Shown here: positions 35,590-44,599 of the stretch, one piece after another
How the letters are laid out: the number at the start of each line of letters is the position of its first letter
Position numbering within the stretch: position 1 is the first letter of the stretch
Source of the DNA: Klebsiella pneumoniae
GTDB taxonomy: Bacteria; Pseudomonadota; Gammaproteobacteria; Steroidobacterales; Steroidobacteraceae
Length of the DNA: 64,000 nt
Direction: 5' to 3'
Assembly: GCA_945873095.1 (NCBI GenBank)
Contig: CAMCBU010000001.1
Coordinates: 62,001-126,000 of the forward strand
The notes under the pieces: model-generated
What the model was told of the DNA's origin: nothing
The model's input: only the letters and a program-made list of their open reading frames with translations
Databases searched by the model: none
Made by a program: the position numbers and the translations under genes

Positions 35590-36162
35590 TCAAGGTGCCG
35601 ACGAGGCTCGTCCCTTCAAGTCCGGCCACGCCGCGCGCAAATAATCGATCGCAGATAACACCGTCAGCACCGCCGCAATCGCGGTCAGTAACACCCCGAG
35701 ATTGTAGGTTGGGAGGAACCACACGTCCCAGCGGATCAGCATCATCGACAAGCCGACGATCTGCAGTATCGTCTTGAGCTTGCCGAGCTTGGAGACGGCG
35801 ACCTTGCGTCGCTGACCGATCTCGGCCATCCACTCGCGCAGCGCGGAGATGGCGATCTCACGACCGATGATGACGATGGCCGGTAACACCACGATCAAAC
35901 GCGGATCTTTGCTCACCAGCAGCACGAGCGCGACGGCGACGATGAGCTTGTCGGCGACCGGGTCGAGAAACGCGCCCAACCGAGAGGTTTGACCGAGCTT
36001 GCGCGCGTAGTACCCATCGAGCGTATCGGTGATGCCTGCGATCGCAAATAAGGCCCCTGCCGCTGGATCGGACCACGGAAACGGCATGTAGAACAGCAGC
36101 ACGACCAGCGGAATCGCGAAAATACGCATCCAGGTCAGTACATTCGGAACGGTCCAGAGCAT
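35590..36162 (-). CDS. pgsA: CDP-diacylglycerol-glycerol-3-phosphate 3-phosphatidyltransferase
   Basis: 190 residues, close to the 182 of E. coli PgsA. The CDP-alcohol phosphotransferase signature is present as DTLDGYYARKLGQTSRLGAFLDPVADK, with all the acidic residues of DGx2ARx8Gx3Dx3D. Four or five helices. Starts MLWTVPNVLTWMRIFAIPLVVL. It makes phosphatidylglycerophosphate in the inner membrane. Six bases separate it from uvrC upstream, and tRNA-Gly follows, the conserved enterobacterial and pseudomonad order. Confidence 0.97.
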   Translation of the reverse strand: MLWTVPNVLTWMRIFAIPLVVLLFYMPFPWSDPAAGALFAIAGITDTLDGYYARKLGQTSRLGAFLDPVADKLIVAVALVLLVSKDPRLIVVLPAIVIIGREIAISALREWMAEIGQRRKVAVSKLGKLKTILQIVGLSMMLIRWDVWFLPTYNLGVLLTAIAAVLTVLSAIDYLRAAWPDLKGRASSAP

Positions 36163-36168
36163 GGTTCT

Positions 36169-37983
36169 CTACTCGCCGGGGTGCAACGAATCATAAAGGT
36201 TTTGCGCCAAGGCAGGACCGATTCCCGGCGCGCGCTCGAGATCCGAACGCGCGGCTTTGAGCACACCTTGCAGCCCGCCGAAATGCTGCAACAGGGCCTT
36301 GCGTTTGGCGGGACCCAAACCCGGTACCGTCTCGAGTATCGACTCGTTGAATCGTTGCGCACGACGGCGCCGGTGTCCCGTGATCGCAAAACGATGTGCC
36401 TCATCGCGAATACGTTGGATCAGCTTCAAGGCCGCCGACTGCGCACCCGGCACCAAAGGCACCTCACCGCGCCAATGCAGTCGCTCCTGCCCTGCCCGCC
36501 GATCCGGTCCCTTTGAAACACCGAGGGTCGGCACCTCCGCAAACTCGAGTTGCTGCAAGACCTCGCGCACCCCGGCGACCTGCGCCGGGCCACCGTCGAT
36601 CACCAGCAGATCCGGCCGCGGGATTTCGCCTGCCGCGATGCGCGTATAGCGCCGCTCGATCGCCTGCCTCAGCGCACCGTAGTCATCGCCCGCAGCGACG
36701 CCCGTGATGTTGAAGCGACGGTAGTCCTTCTTCAGAGGACCCTCCGGCCCAAAGACGACACAGGAAGCGACGGTCCCCTCGCCCTGCGTGTGGCTGATAT
36801 CGAAGCACTCCATGCGAGCCGGCGGTACAGCCACTTCGAGCAAGGCGGCCAACGCGATGTAATCCTCGCGATAGCCCTCGCGACGCGCAAGACGCATGCG
36901 CAGCGCATTGGCGGCATTGTCGCGAGCCATCTCCACCCACCGCGCCGCGAGACCACGTTGTGCGTGTCGTAACCGCACACTGCGTCCCACCAGGACGCCG
37001 AGCGCATCGGCCAGCGGCTCGGCATCGTCGAGCGTCAAACTGGTGTAGATCTCGGGTGGGGGCGTTTGCTCGTGGTAATACTGAACGATGAACGAGGACA
37101 AGGCCTCGGCGGGTTCGGCCAGCAAAGCCTGCGGAAAGTAACTCGATGTACCGAGGCTCCGCCCGCCACGAACCGGCATCACGCTGATGCCGTACCCGCC
37201 GGGATCGCCCGTGATGGCGAAGATGTCGGCATCACGCTCATCGTCAGCCGCCACGACCTGCTGCGACTGTAATTCTTTGATCGCCGCGATCTGATCCCGT
37301 AGCGATGCTGCACGCTCGAACTCGAGGCGCTGCGACGCGTCCTCCATTCGCTCTGCGAGCTCGCGCAACACTTCGTCGTTACGCCCCTCGAGCACTCGCA
37401 CCGCAGCGGAGACATCGCGCGCATAGTCCGGCTGCGAGATGAGCCCGACGCAGGGCGCGGAGCAACGCCCGATTTGAAACTGTAAACAAGGCCGGCTGCG
37501 ATGCGCGAAATAGCTGTCGCGACACGGACGCAAGCGAAACACCTTTTGCAAGTAATGCAACGACTCGGCGACGGCACCGGCGTTCGGATAGGGACCAAAG
37601 AAACGCCCCGGCAGGTTGCGACTGCCACGATACACCGAGAGGCGCGGAAACTCGTGATCGTCGCTCAGCCAAAGATAGGGGAAGCTTTTATCGTCCCGGA
37701 GTACCACGTTGTACTTCGGGTGTAGCGCCTTGATGAGATTATGCTCGAGCAGCAGGGCTTCGGTTTCCGAACGGGTGACGGTCACCTCCATCGACGCAAT
37801 TTGCGCCACGAGCGCCTGCACCTTGGGGTGCATGTTCGAGGGCACAAAATAGCTACCCACGCGATCGCGCAAACTCTTGGCCTTGCCCACGTAGAGCAGC
37901 AAGCCATCGGCGGCGAACATCCGATAGACGCCCGGTCGCCGCGGCAAGCTCGCCACGAAACCGCGGGCGTCAAACGCACTCAC
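36169..37983 (-). CDS. uvrC: UvrABC nuclease subunit C
   Basis: 604 residues from the GTG at 37983, which overlaps the stop of the uracil-DNA glycosylase gene. N-terminal GIY-YIG nuclease domain (PRRPGVYRMFAADGLLLYVGKAKSLRDRVGSYF), cysteine-rich region, UVR segment (RMEDASQRLEFERAASLRDQIAAIKEL), RNase H-like domain with MECFDISHTQG, and C-terminal helix-hairpin-helix (VPGLGPAKRKALLQHFGGLQGVLKA). Makes the dual incision in nucleotide excision repair. A longer frame extends upstream, but the start adopted here gives normal length (E. coli 610). Confidence 0.97.
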   Translation of the reverse strand: MSAFDARGFVASLPRRPGVYRMFAADGLLLYVGKAKSLRDRVGSYFVPSNMHPKVQALVAQIASMEVTVTRSETEALLLEHNLIKALHPKYNVVLRDDKSFPYLWLSDDHEFPRLSVYRGSRNLPGRFFGPYPNAGAVAESLHYLQKVFRLRPCRDSYFAHRSRPCLQFQIGRCSAPCVGLISQPDYARDVSAAVRVLEGRNDEVLRELAERMEDASQRLEFERAASLRDQIAAIKELQSQQVVAADDERDADIFAITGDPGGYGISVMPVRGGRSLGTSSYFPQALLAEPAEALSSFIVQYYHEQTPPPEIYTSLTLDDAEPLADALGVLVGRSVRLRHAQRGLAARWVEMARDNAANALRMRLARREGYREDYIALAALLEVAVPPARMECFDISHTQGEGTVASCVVFGPEGPLKKDYRRFNITGVAAGDDYGALRQAIERRYTRIAAGEIPRPDLLVIDGGPAQVAGVREVLQQLEFAEVPTLGVSKGPDRRAGQERLHWRGEVPLVPGAQSAALKLIQRIRDEAHRFAITGHRRRRAQRFNESILETVPGLGPAKRKALLQHFGGLQGVLKAARSDLERAPGIGPALAQNLYDSLHPGE

Positions 37984-38637: not shown

Positions 38638-39966
38638 TCAATCACTCATGTGACGGACGATCGCGTCACCGAAACCAGAGCAACTCATCAACTTGGCACC
38701 GGGTATCAATTGCTGCATCGCCTCTTCGACGTTACGACGCGCAGCCAGTTCGCGCTTGCTGGCACGAATGGCCTCACGGAGTCTCGCCAGATCGTAAGTT
38801 AGTTCTTTCGCCGCGATCGTGTTGGCAACGCCCTTGATGATGAGATCCGCCGCCTCGCCCCACTTGAGGTAACGCAACATCATCTCGGCGGAGAGAATGA
38901 TCGAGCCCGGGTTGACCCGATCTTTGCCGGCGAACCCCGGCGCTGTGCCATGGGTGGCTTCGAACACGGCAAGACCGTGACCGATATTGCCGCCCGGGGC
39001 GATGCCGATACCACCGACCTGCGCCGCGAGCGCATCGGAGATGTAGTCACCGTTCAGGTTCAAGGTGGCGATCACGTCGTACTCTTCCGGACGCAGCAAC
39101 ACTTGCTGCAGAAAGTTGTCGGCGATGACATCCTTGATGACGATGTCCTTGCCAGTGATCGGGTTGCGGAAGCTCATCCAAGGGCCACCACCAAATTCAC
39201 TCGCACCGAACTCGTCCTTCGCCAACTGGTAGCCCCAGTTGCGGAACGCCCCTTCGGTGTATTTCATGATGTTGCCCTTGTGCACGAGCGTCACGGAGAC
39301 GCGATCGTTCTCGATGGCGTACTGGATCGCCATACGGATCAATCGCTGGCTGCCCTCCTTCGAAACGGGCTTGATGCCGATGCCGGAGCTTGCCGGAAAG
39401 CGGATGCCCTTCGCGTGCAGCTCCGATTGCAGAAAGTGGATCAAGCGCTGCACTTCGTTCGAGCCCGCCGGATATTCGATGCCCGCGTAAATGTCTTCGG
39501 TGTTCTCACGAAACACCACCATATCGGTCAAGGAGGCATCCTGCATGGGCGTGGCGACACCGGGGAAATATCGGATCGGTCGCACGCAAGCATAGAGGTC
39601 TAAGGTCTGACGCATGACGACGTTCAGCGAGCGAATACCCCCACCGATCGGAGTGCCGAGCGGCCCTTTGATCGAGACGACGAACTCGCGTAGCGCATGC
39701 AGCGACTCATCCGGGAACCACGTTCCACAGACCTGATTACCCTTCTCGCCAGCAAAGATTTCCATCCACTCGATGCGACGGCGATCACCGTAGGCTTTCG
39801 CCACCGCGGCATCCACCACCTTGCGCATGACGGGTGTGATGTCGACACCGATACCGTCGCCCTCGATGAACGGGATGATGGGGCGATCCGGCACGTTGAG
39901 GCTGCCGTCAGCGTTGATCGTGATGCGACCACCGGCGGTCGGTACCTGGATGAACTCGTACTTCAT
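38638..39966 (-). CDS. icd: NADP-dependent isocitrate dehydrogenase
   Basis: 442 residues, aligning with E. coli Icd (416) throughout. Ser113 in [13 protein letters not shown] is the residue that AceK phosphorylates in E. coli, and the match is in number and context. Further segments: [51 protein letters not shown] and FEATHGTAP. Converts isocitrate to 2-oxoglutarate. It faces the isocitrate branch with aceA directly upstream on the same strand, from which it is separated by a terminator hairpin whose T-run ends at the bases before the ATG. No Shine-Dalgarno sequence is visible. Confidence 0.97.
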
Positions 39967-39967
39967 G

Positions 39968-40005
39968 AAAAATCCGCGCCCTTGCTCGTTCGAAGGGCGC
40001 GGATT
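39968..40005 (-). terminator. Strong intrinsic terminator between aceA and icd
   Basis: On the minus strand a perfect 13-base stem, AATCCGCGCCCTT paired with AAGGGCGCGGATT, encloses a 9-base loop and runs into five T residues. The T-run ends one base before the icd ATG. It should end aceBA transcripts, yet it occupies the space where the icd ribosome site would be. Confidence 0.85.
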
Positions 40006-40008
40006 CTA
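40003..40008 (-). promoter_or_regulatory. TAGAAT, candidate -10 box of icd
   Basis: TAGAAT on the minus strand overlaps the upstream edge of the terminator stem. Transcription starting about seven bases downstream would begin inside the first arm and so could not form the full hairpin. GCTTGA at the aceA stop (40025-40030) is a poor -35 match at a 16-base spacing. Tentative. Confidence 0.3.
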
Positions 40009-40024
40009 CCCGAGGCCGAGAGAC

Positions 40025-41311
40025 TCAAGCGACGGCGAATTGCTCCTCTTCCGTCGAGCCCTTCATGGCCGTGACCGAGGATTGCCCCGCCGAGACCGTC
40101 TGGGTGACGTCGTCGAAATATCCCGCACCGACTTCACGCTGGTGCTTGGTCGCCGTGTATCCGTCCTTCTCGGCTGCGAACTCCGCTTGCTGCAGATTCA
40201 CGTACGCCGACATCTGCGACTCGCGATATCCCTTGGCGAGTTGGAACATCGAGAAATTCAGGGCGTGGAAGCCCGCCAGAGTGATGAACTGGAACTTGTA
40301 GCCCATCGCCCCGAGCTCACGCTGGAACTTGGCGATCGTCACGTCGTCGAGTTTCTTCTTCCAGTTGAACGAAGGCGAACAGTTGTAGGCGAGCAGCTTG
40401 CCCGGGAACTGCGCGTGGATGGTCTCGGCGAAATGCTTCGCTTCGGTCAAGTCGGGCGTTCCCGTCTCGCACCACAACAGATCGGCATAGGGGGCGTAGG
40501 CGAGACCACGCGCGATCGCCTGATCGAGACCCGCTCGCACATGGAAGAACCCCTCGGAGGTCCGTCCGCGCTCGGCATCGATGAACGGACGATCACGCTC
40601 ATCGACGTCGGCCGTCAGCAGGTTCGCACTCTCTGCATCGGTTCTGGCGACCAGAATGGTGGGCACGTCGCACACGTCGGCAGCCAAACGCGCCGCCACC
40701 AGTTTGTTGACAGCCTCTTGAGTCGGCACGAGCACCTTGCCACCCATATGCCCGCACTTCTTGGCCGAGGAGAGCTGATCCTCGAAATGCACGCCGGCGG
40801 CGCCCGCTTCGATCATGCCCTTCATCAACTCGAAGGCGTTCAACACACCACCGAAGCCAGCCTCGGCATCGGCCACGATCGGCTGCAGCCAATCGATCGA
40901 ATCATCGCCCTCGGCGTGATGCAACTGATCCGCGCGCAGCAACGTGTTGTTGATCCGACGTACGACCTGCGGTACGGAGTTGGCGGGATACAGCGATTGA
41001 TCCGGGTACATTTCCCCGGCGAGATTCGCATCCCCGGCCACCTGCCAGCCCGACAGATAGATCGCCTTGAGGCCGGCGCGCACCTGCTGCATCGCTTGGT
41101 TACCAGTCAATGCACCGAGCGCGTTGACGTACGGCAGGGTCGCCATATTGCGCCACAGTTTTTCAGCGCCGAGCCGCGCGAGCGAATGCTCGATCGCGAC
41201 GGTGCCGCGCAGACGCACCACATCCTGCGCGCCGTAACCACGCTGCACACCGCTCCAGCGCGGGCTCGTGGACCATTCTCGTTGCAACTCGTCGGCACTC
41301 TTCAGGGGCAT
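40025..41311 (-). CDS. aceA: Isocitrate lyase
   Basis: 428 residues (E. coli 434). The signature KKCGHMGGK contains the catalytic Cys186. Other segments: [45 protein letters not shown] and [16 protein letters not shown]. Cleaves isocitrate to succinate and glyoxylate for growth on acetate or fatty acids. It lies 58 bases downstream of aceB and is followed by an intrinsic terminator and icd, so lyase and dehydrogenase genes for the same substrate are neighbours. Confidence 0.98.
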
Positions 41312-41369: not shown

Positions 41370-42962
<1,593 letters not shown>

Positions 42963-43033
42963 GGAAGCTCGCACGCTGTGGAGGGACCGTTGAACTCTAG
43001 CGACATTGGTGAGAGTATTTACACAATAGAAAT

Positions 43034-43054: not shown

Positions 43055-44599
43055 ATGGTCGGATTGCTACGCCAAGGACATTTTCTCGGCTCCAAGTTGC
43101 GCAGTCTGCGCAAACGCAACGGCCTGACCCTCGATGAAGTCTCGGCGCGTTGCATCCAACTCAACTCCGAACATGCTCCGTCGGTGTCTTACCTCAGCAT
43201 GGTCGAGACCGGCAAACGCGTCCCGTCCGCCCAGATGCTCGAGGTGCTCGCGCAAGTTTTCGGTAAAGACGTCGGCTGGTTCCTCGATCGAACCGAAGCG
43301 CAACCGGCGAGCCCGCCGCGCAAAGGCCGAGGTGGCGTCGCCACGGTGATGCCGCTGGAACCCGCGTTTCTGTTCTCCAAAGAATTGCTGCAATCGGCGC
43401 TCCCGGAACTGCTAGCCCAGACCGGCACGAGTGGTCGGCAGTTCGCTCGCCTGCTCGTGCGCGTCTGGCAGGAGGCCCGTCAAAACGATTTCCCCGATAT
43501 CGAACGAGCCGCCGAATCGGTCGGCCGGCGTCGCATGCCGCTCACGCTCGAAGATGTACTCAAGATCGCCACCGACCTCGGCCTGCTGATTCGATGGGTC
43601 GACGAGGATCGCCGCAACCCACAGTCGAAGTTGCTGCGTGCGCGCTTCGAAACGCCGGGCACGATCGTCATCAATCGGCGTTTACGCGGCCAAGAAGCAC
43701 GCCTCAAATACACGCTGGCCTTTTTCATCGGCCACAAGATCCTGCATGGCGCCGACGGTGTCGTGCCGCCGCACAGCGTGACCGGGGCCACCGCAGAAGA
43801 ACCGACGACCGTCGATGCCGCCTCGATGGCGCCGCGCGATGTGCTACTCGCTTGGCGCGACTTCGAGTGCAGCGCCTTCGCCGGCGCGCTGCTCTGCCCC
43901 AAACAACCGCTGCGTCAATTTCTGGTACGCGAGCATCATGAGATTGCCGCCTGCGACAAACTCGGGGTCACTCCGGCGGTCATGATGCGCCGGATGACGG
44001 CCGTCTCGCCGTATCGCCACTGGCATTTCTTTGACGGTTACTCACCCGGGTTCTTGCGGGCCGTCTATCGCGGCAATGGTATTCCGCTACCGTGGGGCAA
44101 CATGAGTCTGGTGCCCGATCCGTGCCCGAACTGGGCGGTTTTTCGGCTACTGCGAGATACGCCCGAGTCGCGCGCGGCCGAGCACAAACCGGTTTCGCAG
44201 ATCTCGATCATGCGCGATGGCGGTGAACCGAAGCTCTATTGCTGCCATTCGCTGCGCACCCGGGATGCGGCCGACGTTTCGCACGTCTTGTCCGTCGGGG
44301 TGGATCTCGCGCCAGCTCTCGAGGCACAAGGACTCGATGCGCACGCGCTGATTGCGATGATCGACGAGAGTTGTCGCCGGGGTAAAGGAGTCGGCAAGGT
44401 TCCGCCCGAGGCTGCAGCCGCGATTCGTACTGCGAGCCATGTGCTGAATATAGCGTGGGTCGCGCGGGCGCTCGAATCACCGGCGAGCGTCATCTGTCCG
44501 CGCAGCAGCGGCTGCCCGCGCGAGGTCAGCTGCGGCGACGCTCCGCTCGTCCGCGATCTGCGATCAACATCGCGAGCTCCAGCGACTGCTCGTAGTTGA
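43055..44599 (+). CDS. XRE-type regulator, RamB/ScfR-like (acetate or short-chain acyl response)
   Basis: 514 residues. Residues about 8-70 form an XRE helix-turn-helix (LGSKLRSLRKRNGLTLDEV, VSYLSMVETGKRVPSAQMLEVLAQVFG). The middle has an IrrE/ImmA-like region (RARFETPGTIVINRRLRGQEARLKYTLAFFIGHKILHG). The C-terminal domain with a cysteine cluster (VICPRSSGCPREVSCGD) resembles the region seen in RamB-type regulators and DUF3612/DUF2083 proteins. It diverges from aceB, as such regulators of glyoxylate-shunt genes do. No ribosome site precedes the ATG. Its last 74 bases overlap the convergent DAHP synthase gene. Confidence 0.82.
   Translation: MVGLLRQGHFLGSKLRSLRKRNGLTLDEVSARCIQLNSEHAPSVSYLSMVETGKRVPSAQMLEVLAQVFGKDVGWFLDRTEAQPASPPRKGRGGVATVMPLEPAFLFSKELLQSALPELLAQTGTSGRQFARLLVRVWQEARQNDFPDIERAAESVGRRRMPLTLEDVLKIATDLGLLIRWVDEDRRNPQSKLLRARFETPGTIVINRRLRGQEARLKYTLAFFIGHKILHGADGVVPPHSVTGATAEEPTTVDAASMAPRDVLLAWRDFECSAFAGALLCPKQPLRQFLVREHHEIAACDKLGVTPAVMMRRMTAVSPYRHWHFFDGYSPGFLRAVYRGNGIPLPWGNMSLVPDPCPNWAVFRLLRDTPESRAAEHKPVSQISIMRDGGEPKLYCCHSLRTRDAADVSHVLSVGVDLAPALEAQGLDAHALIAMIDESCRRGKGVGKVPPEAAAAIRTASHVLNIAWVARALESPASVICPRSSGCPREVSCGDAPLVRDLRSTSRAPATARS

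Follow-up and report, generated by a model that had tools for sequence, protein, structure and literature searches.

A hairpin lies between aceA, the gene for isocitrate lyase, and a second isocitrate dehydrogenase gene, icd. Its 5' arm begins within a promoter-like box and its 3' foot adjoins the start codon of the downstream gene, and this arrangement is kept in the genus even where icd has been lost. We propose that the arrangement insulates against readthrough, that its 5' arm embeds the promoter of the downstream unit, and that it stands between aceBA and icd-udg-uvrC-pgsA, and we assign this reading a probability of roughly 55%. The features of the junction in the window (the whole stretch of 64,000 nucleotides that was analysed) are listed here from upstream to downstream.

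41370–42974, minus strand: aceB, malate synthase
40025–41311, minus strand: aceA, isocitrate lyase, 428 aa
40003–40008, minus strand: TAGAAT, probable -10 box, followed by CCGCGCC, a putative GC-rich discriminator
39993–40005, minus strand: 5' arm of the hairpin, AATCCGCGCCCTT, read in the sequence
39995–39997, minus strand: predicted transcription start, within the 5' arm, 6-8 nt past the box
39984–39992, minus strand: hairpin loop, 9 nt
39971–39983, minus strand: 3' arm of the hairpin, AAGGGCGCGGATT, read in the sequence
39968–39972, minus strand: run of five T, two of them within the 13-bp stem; among the 16 hairpin loci, elsewhere only in L012
38638–39966, minus strand: icd, the genome's second isocitrate dehydrogenase, 442 aa
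37980–38645, minus strand: udg, uracil-DNA glycosylase superfamily, overlapping the end of icd by 8 nt
36169–37983, minus strand: uvrC, overlapping udg by 4 nt
35590–36162, minus strand: CDP-alcohol phosphatidyltransferase (pgsA-like), 6 nt past uvrC

Anatomy of the junction

On the minus strand the aceA stop codon (40027-40025) and the icd ATG (39966-39964) are separated by a gap of 58 nt. The hairpin within it (39971-40005) has a 13-bp stem with arms that are 100% complementary and a loop of 9 nt, and after the T-run (39972-39968) a single C precedes the ATG. This agrees with the initial annotation, which had described a perfect 13-bp stem and five T ending one base before the icd ATG; two of these T fall inside the stem. 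The annotation was also correct that a TAGAAT box overlaps the stem edge, since the box (40008-40003) and the 5' foot of the stem share three bases. The usual sigma-70 spacing is the basis for placing the predicted start at 39995-39997. The further claim that the layout leaves no ribosome site held only in part: the SD is indeed weak, but the 3' arm carries G-rich, SD-like bases, AAGGG 12 nt ahead of the icd ATG in the window and GGAGG 8 nt ahead of the start codon in one relative (L217).

Because of the overlaps of 8 and 4 nt and the 6-nt spacing, icd, udg, uvrC and the pgsA-like gene may be a single transcription unit. In this genome of 2.49 Mb, assembled as 69 contigs, another icd copy lies at C7:24470-25699, 60% identical to the one at the junction. 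Junction-type icd, full or partial, is present in 74 of 217 family genomes at an E cut-off of 1e-170; the named relatives are gammaproteobacterial MAGs, with an icd 71% identical in a Woeseiaceae MAG. Divergent from aceB, at 43055-44599 on the plus strand, is a gene whose regulator product combines an HTH domain with DUF3612 and resembles RamB-type regulators of acetate genes.

The hairpin is rare and stable

Perfect inverted repeats whose arms measure 10 bp or more and whose loops span 3-12 nt occur twice in the window, and only the aceA-icd hairpin reaches an arm length of 13 bp or more. When the window was randomised 12 times by a first-order Markov model, each version had 0-3 repeats with arms of 10 bp or more, and no version had one of 13 bp or longer. 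Folded on the minus strand, the box-to-ATG stretch gives -26.3 kcal/mol, compared with a mean of -10.2 for 500 dinucleotide shuffles (z -6.2). On the opposite (plus) strand a folded stretch of 121 nt reached only z -1.1, and 29 of 200 shuffles were equally good.

The stem is GC-rich and stable, and it lies where a transcription unit ends. A consensus terminator scan with a loop limit of 8 nt did not list it, its loop being 9 nt. A broader survey covered 304 kb (the window and 12 stretches of 20 kb, with rough gene calls and gaps of 25-400 nt; 81 gaps, 48 of them tandem), and among the hairpins listed there the one between aceA and icd was alone in ending no more than 8 nt from a downstream start. 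Rfam returned no family matches for positions 39700-40300 at E up to 1, and the candidate of a known RNA family was dropped on this result. A literature search, with subscription journals outside its scope, found no report of an aceA-icd junction with such a hairpin.

Conservation within the genus

We identified aceA in 19 of 24 genomes of the genus and read the junction in 17 of them; in the other two (G019 and G005) the contig breaks off before reaching the 3' end of aceA. Conservation in relatives, by which the initial annotation had proposed to judge the hairpin, was found at 16 of the 17 loci, in each case flanked by a TANA(A/C)T box and the next start, with G011 (L020) as the one locus lacking it. 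The box itself, as TAGAAT, TAAAAT, TACAAT or TAAACT, is present in all 17. It lies shortly past aceA, at the 5' foot of the hairpin in every one of the 16 hairpin loci; in L020 it is close to the next start instead. The start codon is within the stem at three loci (L216, L218 and L221) and 2-6 nt outside it at the 13 others with a hairpin.

Box-to-ATG folds were compared with 500 shuffles at the 11 icd loci, giving p values of 0.002-0.014 in ten and 0.70 in L020; the remaining loci (L214-L218 and L221) were judged by fold energy alone, with values of -21.0 to -28.4. When the whole aceA-icd gap was folded, the hairpin did not exceed shuffles in L014 (p 0.08), L015 (0.60) and L019 (0.08), and in L020 the hairpin of this test sits far upstream. 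The stem model R1 missed L014 and L015 and gave weak scores for L021 and L020, so these four rest on evidence other than R1.

A T-run follows only two of the 16 genus hairpins, that of the window (L011) and that of L012, whose icd proteins are 99% identical. Plain termination is therefore not the function that these loci share. The intrinsic terminator of the initial annotation is not supported as a conserved function, and the candidate of a terminator alone was downgraded on the same count.

Order of box and hairpin outside the genus

For comparison we collected 77 loci of junction-type icd outside the genus, having dropped L158 and L197, which have a different N-terminus; the loci of the named relatives are not included. 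Among the 21 distinct aceA-icd gaps outside the genus, 13 hold a hairpin at p <=0.05, and 12 of these 13 hairpins are ahead of the candidate box; the remaining eight gaps have no such hairpin or could not be tested. A T-run of four or more follows five of the gap hairpins (L147, L153, L156, L198 and L199); in L147, as in L143, the upstream gene is only a 29-30% match to aceA. Long perfect hairpins occur directly past aceA in other families of the order (L140, L153 and L156), with a T-run in the latter two. Since 12 of the 13 hairpins precede the box, the ordinary order appears to be aceA, a terminator-like hairpin, a promoter and then icd. In the window's genus the hairpin is behind the box instead of ahead of it.

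These data bear on a simpler explanation, namely that the hairpin is an ordinary intrinsic terminator of aceBA which overlaps the next promoter for want of room in a gap of 58 nt and has no translational role. The GC-rich stem and TTTTT of the window are what a terminator should look like, the hairpins and occasional T-runs of the non-genus gaps fit it, and in this genome seven of 14 hairpins past gene ends have at least four T in a 10-nt tail window. We nevertheless regard this explanation as unlikely, because it does not account for the scarcity of T-runs within the genus, nor for a hairpin that lies past the box in all 16 loci despite room of 207 nt (L020) and 101 nt (L018).

The non-genus loci also address whether icd mRNA is leaderless, a possibility raised in the initial annotation. 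A TANA(A/C/T)T box stands 5-8 nt ahead of the icd start in 27 of the 77 loci (L022, L024-L028, L031, L165-L188 and others), at exactly 6 nt in 24, and for these 27 a leaderless icd mRNA is predicted. They belong mostly to one genus (g18), in which no aceA precedes icd. Another 38 loci have no such box within 70 nt, and 12 have one at least 15 nt upstream of the start; in none of the 12 does the box-to-start fold attain p <0.05 (lowest 0.055). A leaderless icd is improbable in the window's genus and was rejected there, as the box is 28-40 nt ahead of the icd ATG (11 loci) and none occurs at the required distance.

The arms change together

The sixth pair from the outside of the stem is C-G, G-C, U-A, A-U or G-U, depending on the genome, and at least six changes are needed to place these states on one maximum-likelihood tree of aceA DNA, of which 7 of 19 inner branches are well supported. 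Over the eight outer pairs of 14 distinct stems, 99.1% of cells are paired, compared with a shuffled mean of 93.2%. In 500 shuffles, which ignore kinship, none matched the paired cells, the double-sided changes or the covariation score. The stem-only alignment used here (A4) omits L218, whose stem equals that of L216, as well as L014 and L020, which are out of register; it is imperfect in the rows of L015 and L021 and in a single cell of L016. In an earlier count, made on seven rows of lower alignment quality (A2, with L019 one column off), 124 of 500 shuffles were as high on paired cells. When the same eight pairs were counted ungapped from both ends in 15 loci, the seven distinct arm pairs had 54 of 56 cells paired, and 73 of 20,000 shuffles were equally high. 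Of the 720 ways to permute the arms among six representatives, the native pairing ranks first; once L020, which has no hairpin, is added, 3 of 5040 arrangements are as good, the native one counted (third or tied).

The covariation comes mainly from one pair, because five of the eight outer pairs are nearly invariant. We interpret the near-invariant 5' arm beside the box as what would be expected of a promoter, with the 3' arm following its changes.

Pairing might instead be maintained by mutation and not by selection, as in a self-mending palindrome in which one arm is copied onto the other. Template switching makes perfect inverted repeats and can account for double changes. Several stems (L018, L021 and L216), however, carry G-U pairs and mismatches and are thus imperfect copies. 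Moreover, pairing is retained in 16 of 17 loci, and the foot of the stem remains at the start codon once icd is lost. We consider this explanation very doubtful.

The box resembles sequences upstream of tRNA genes

The sequence TAGAATCCGCGCC occurs exactly twice in the genome, at the aceA-icd junction and upstream of tRNA-Ala(cgc); its TATAAT version, TATAATCCGCGCC, is found upstream of tRNA-Arg(acg), at two contig ends, and TANAATCCGCGCC lies ahead of tRNA genes in the same genome. With up to one mismatch TAGAATCCGCGCC is found in ten places, compared with three for the reversed pattern. Because the same sequence precedes tRNA genes, the box and CCGCGCC are probably a -10 element with a GC-rich discriminator, and the TAGAAT box probably belongs to a real promoter. 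No good -35 was found by eye. A repeat element was rejected as the source of the motif, the genome having exactly two copies of TAGAATCCGCGCC.

RNAs started from the box are predicted, across the 17 loci, to have leaders of 20-34 nt; their SD-like pairing ranges between -2.6 kcal/mol (L014) and -9.5 kcal/mol (L217, with GGAGG). Weak R1 matches (L219, L220 and L222; 20-23 bits) were also obtained ahead of the other icd in G003, G012 and G002, where TAGAATCCGCGCC is followed by a weaker hairpin with a T-run and by an SD further along.

Predicted effect on readthrough and on the downstream transcript

From these sequences and from fold energies we infer promoter activity, a start site, a block to translation and a degree of termination, which together would work as follows. 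Any readthrough RNA from aceBA would have both arms, so that the hairpin would close, and with its 3' foot 0-6 nt from the start codon the closed hairpin should make the next gene's translation start inaccessible. In the window's species and its nearest relative (L012) the T-run would give an added chance of termination. RNA from the TAGAAT box would begin inside the 5' arm; if begun about 7 nt past the box it keeps only 3-5 nt of the 13-nt arm, so that the long stem could not form and translation would be possible. The initial annotation had likewise proposed that the downstream gene's own transcript escapes the hairpin and that readthrough forms it. In form the loci fit this proposal (hairpin in 16 of 17, box in 17 of 17, 3-5 nt of arm left), and the behaviour of the RNA is predicted.

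To express the effect in energies, we calculated the cost of unpairing the nucleotides between 18 nt upstream and 12 nt downstream of the start codon, the readthrough RNA being given 120 nt upstream. In the 16 hairpin loci this predicted cost is 15.3-28.0 kcal/mol for readthrough RNA and 6.8-19.1 kcal/mol for box-started RNA; in the hairpinless L020 the values are 9.2 and 6.7. The readthrough RNA is costlier to open in 17 of 17 loci, L020 included, a count to be read with the fact that a longer RNA always costs more. The difference is small in L215 (19.8 vs 16.5) and L217 (24.3 vs 19.1), whose own transcripts remain structured.

The hairpin could alternatively serve as a 5'-UTR element acting in the icd transcript, or as a protein-binding palindromic operator. 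In some of the predicted own transcripts a few pairs survive as an inner stem (for example L018, -11 to -13 kcal/mol), which favours a UTR element, but in most loci little structure is left, and the Rfam search described above offers neither idea support. For an operator, it is also awkward that the arm sequence drifts while pairing persists and that G-U pairs break the symmetry of the DNA. Both ideas seem to us improbable.

The element persists where icd is gone

In four genomes (G021, G013, G018 and G022), found by means of R1, the box and hairpin stand behind aceA and the next gene is that for uracil-DNA glycosylase. In a fifth (G004, L214:1541-1816) all that is left of icd is a 92-codon remnant that carries internal deletions, and the hairpin and box are intact. 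On the aceA tree three changes of next gene are needed, two losses of icd and one remnant. In G007 (L217) icd is cut by the contig edge.

Since it is kept after the loss of icd, the element belongs to the end of aceA and to the promoter of whatever follows. That promoter would serve the next unit regardless of its leading gene: icd-udg-uvrC-pgsA in the window, udg where icd is lost. The initial annotation had placed the hairpin at the isocitrate branch point, separating the two competing enzymes. Control of this branch was rejected as the reason for the hairpin, because hairpin and box outlive icd; the proposal is weakened further by the junction icd being a second copy, the other lying beside aceK elsewhere in the genome. 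The aceK gene is about 1 kb behind that other icd (G000:C7:24470-27462; L200 and L206), which links the kinase to the copy not adjoining aceA.

Discussion

Head-to-tail operons need a means of keeping the RNA of one unit from expressing the next. The readthrough insulator proposed here may be put in a more specific and more tentative form, to which we lean somewhat less than halfway: a one-way gate on the chromosome, in which the -10 and discriminator also make up one arm, the 5' one, of a hairpin silencing the translation of readthrough RNA, and which has been kept in the genus by compensatory change and across a swap of the next gene by deletion. Should the pairing act in the proposed way, promoter, discriminator and half of a silencer would coincide in a single short sequence, and ordinary terminator scans would miss such elements because the T-run is mostly absent. 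Models like R1 could be used to seek more of them.

Several known systems invite comparison. The window's GC-rich 13-bp stem followed by T resembles an intrinsic terminator. Unlike one, the element lacks a T-run in 14 of the 16 relatives with a hairpin, adjoins a start codon and lies behind a promoter box. In IS10 and IS50 the transposase is protected from outside transcripts by a readthrough RNA that folds over the start region. Our proposal has a similar fold in readthrough RNA, but those are mobile elements and not junctions of metabolic operons.

The closest parallel is gene e of phage T4. According to PMC3014915, long early RNAs of gene e close a stem over the start region, whereas RNAs from the late promoter are without the 5' strand of the stem and are translated well; phages related to T4 retain the late promoter within the sequence of that 5' strand, and soc, 49 and I-TevI are of the same type, with the start region hidden in long transcripts. 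The aceA-icd junction has the same layout in its sequence, with a putative promoter that overlaps the 5' side of a stem which upstream RNA would close at the start. It differs from gene e, as described there, in lying on a bacterial chromosome with a probable housekeeping-type promoter in place of a phage late promoter, in a weak SD and a start codon that is usually just outside the stem, and in the T-run added in two genomes (L011 and L012). A layout known from phage T4 seems to have been kept by evolution in a bacterial chromosome, and if the one-way gate is real, the layout of gene e would be a general way of insulating neighbouring operons in compact bacterial genomes.
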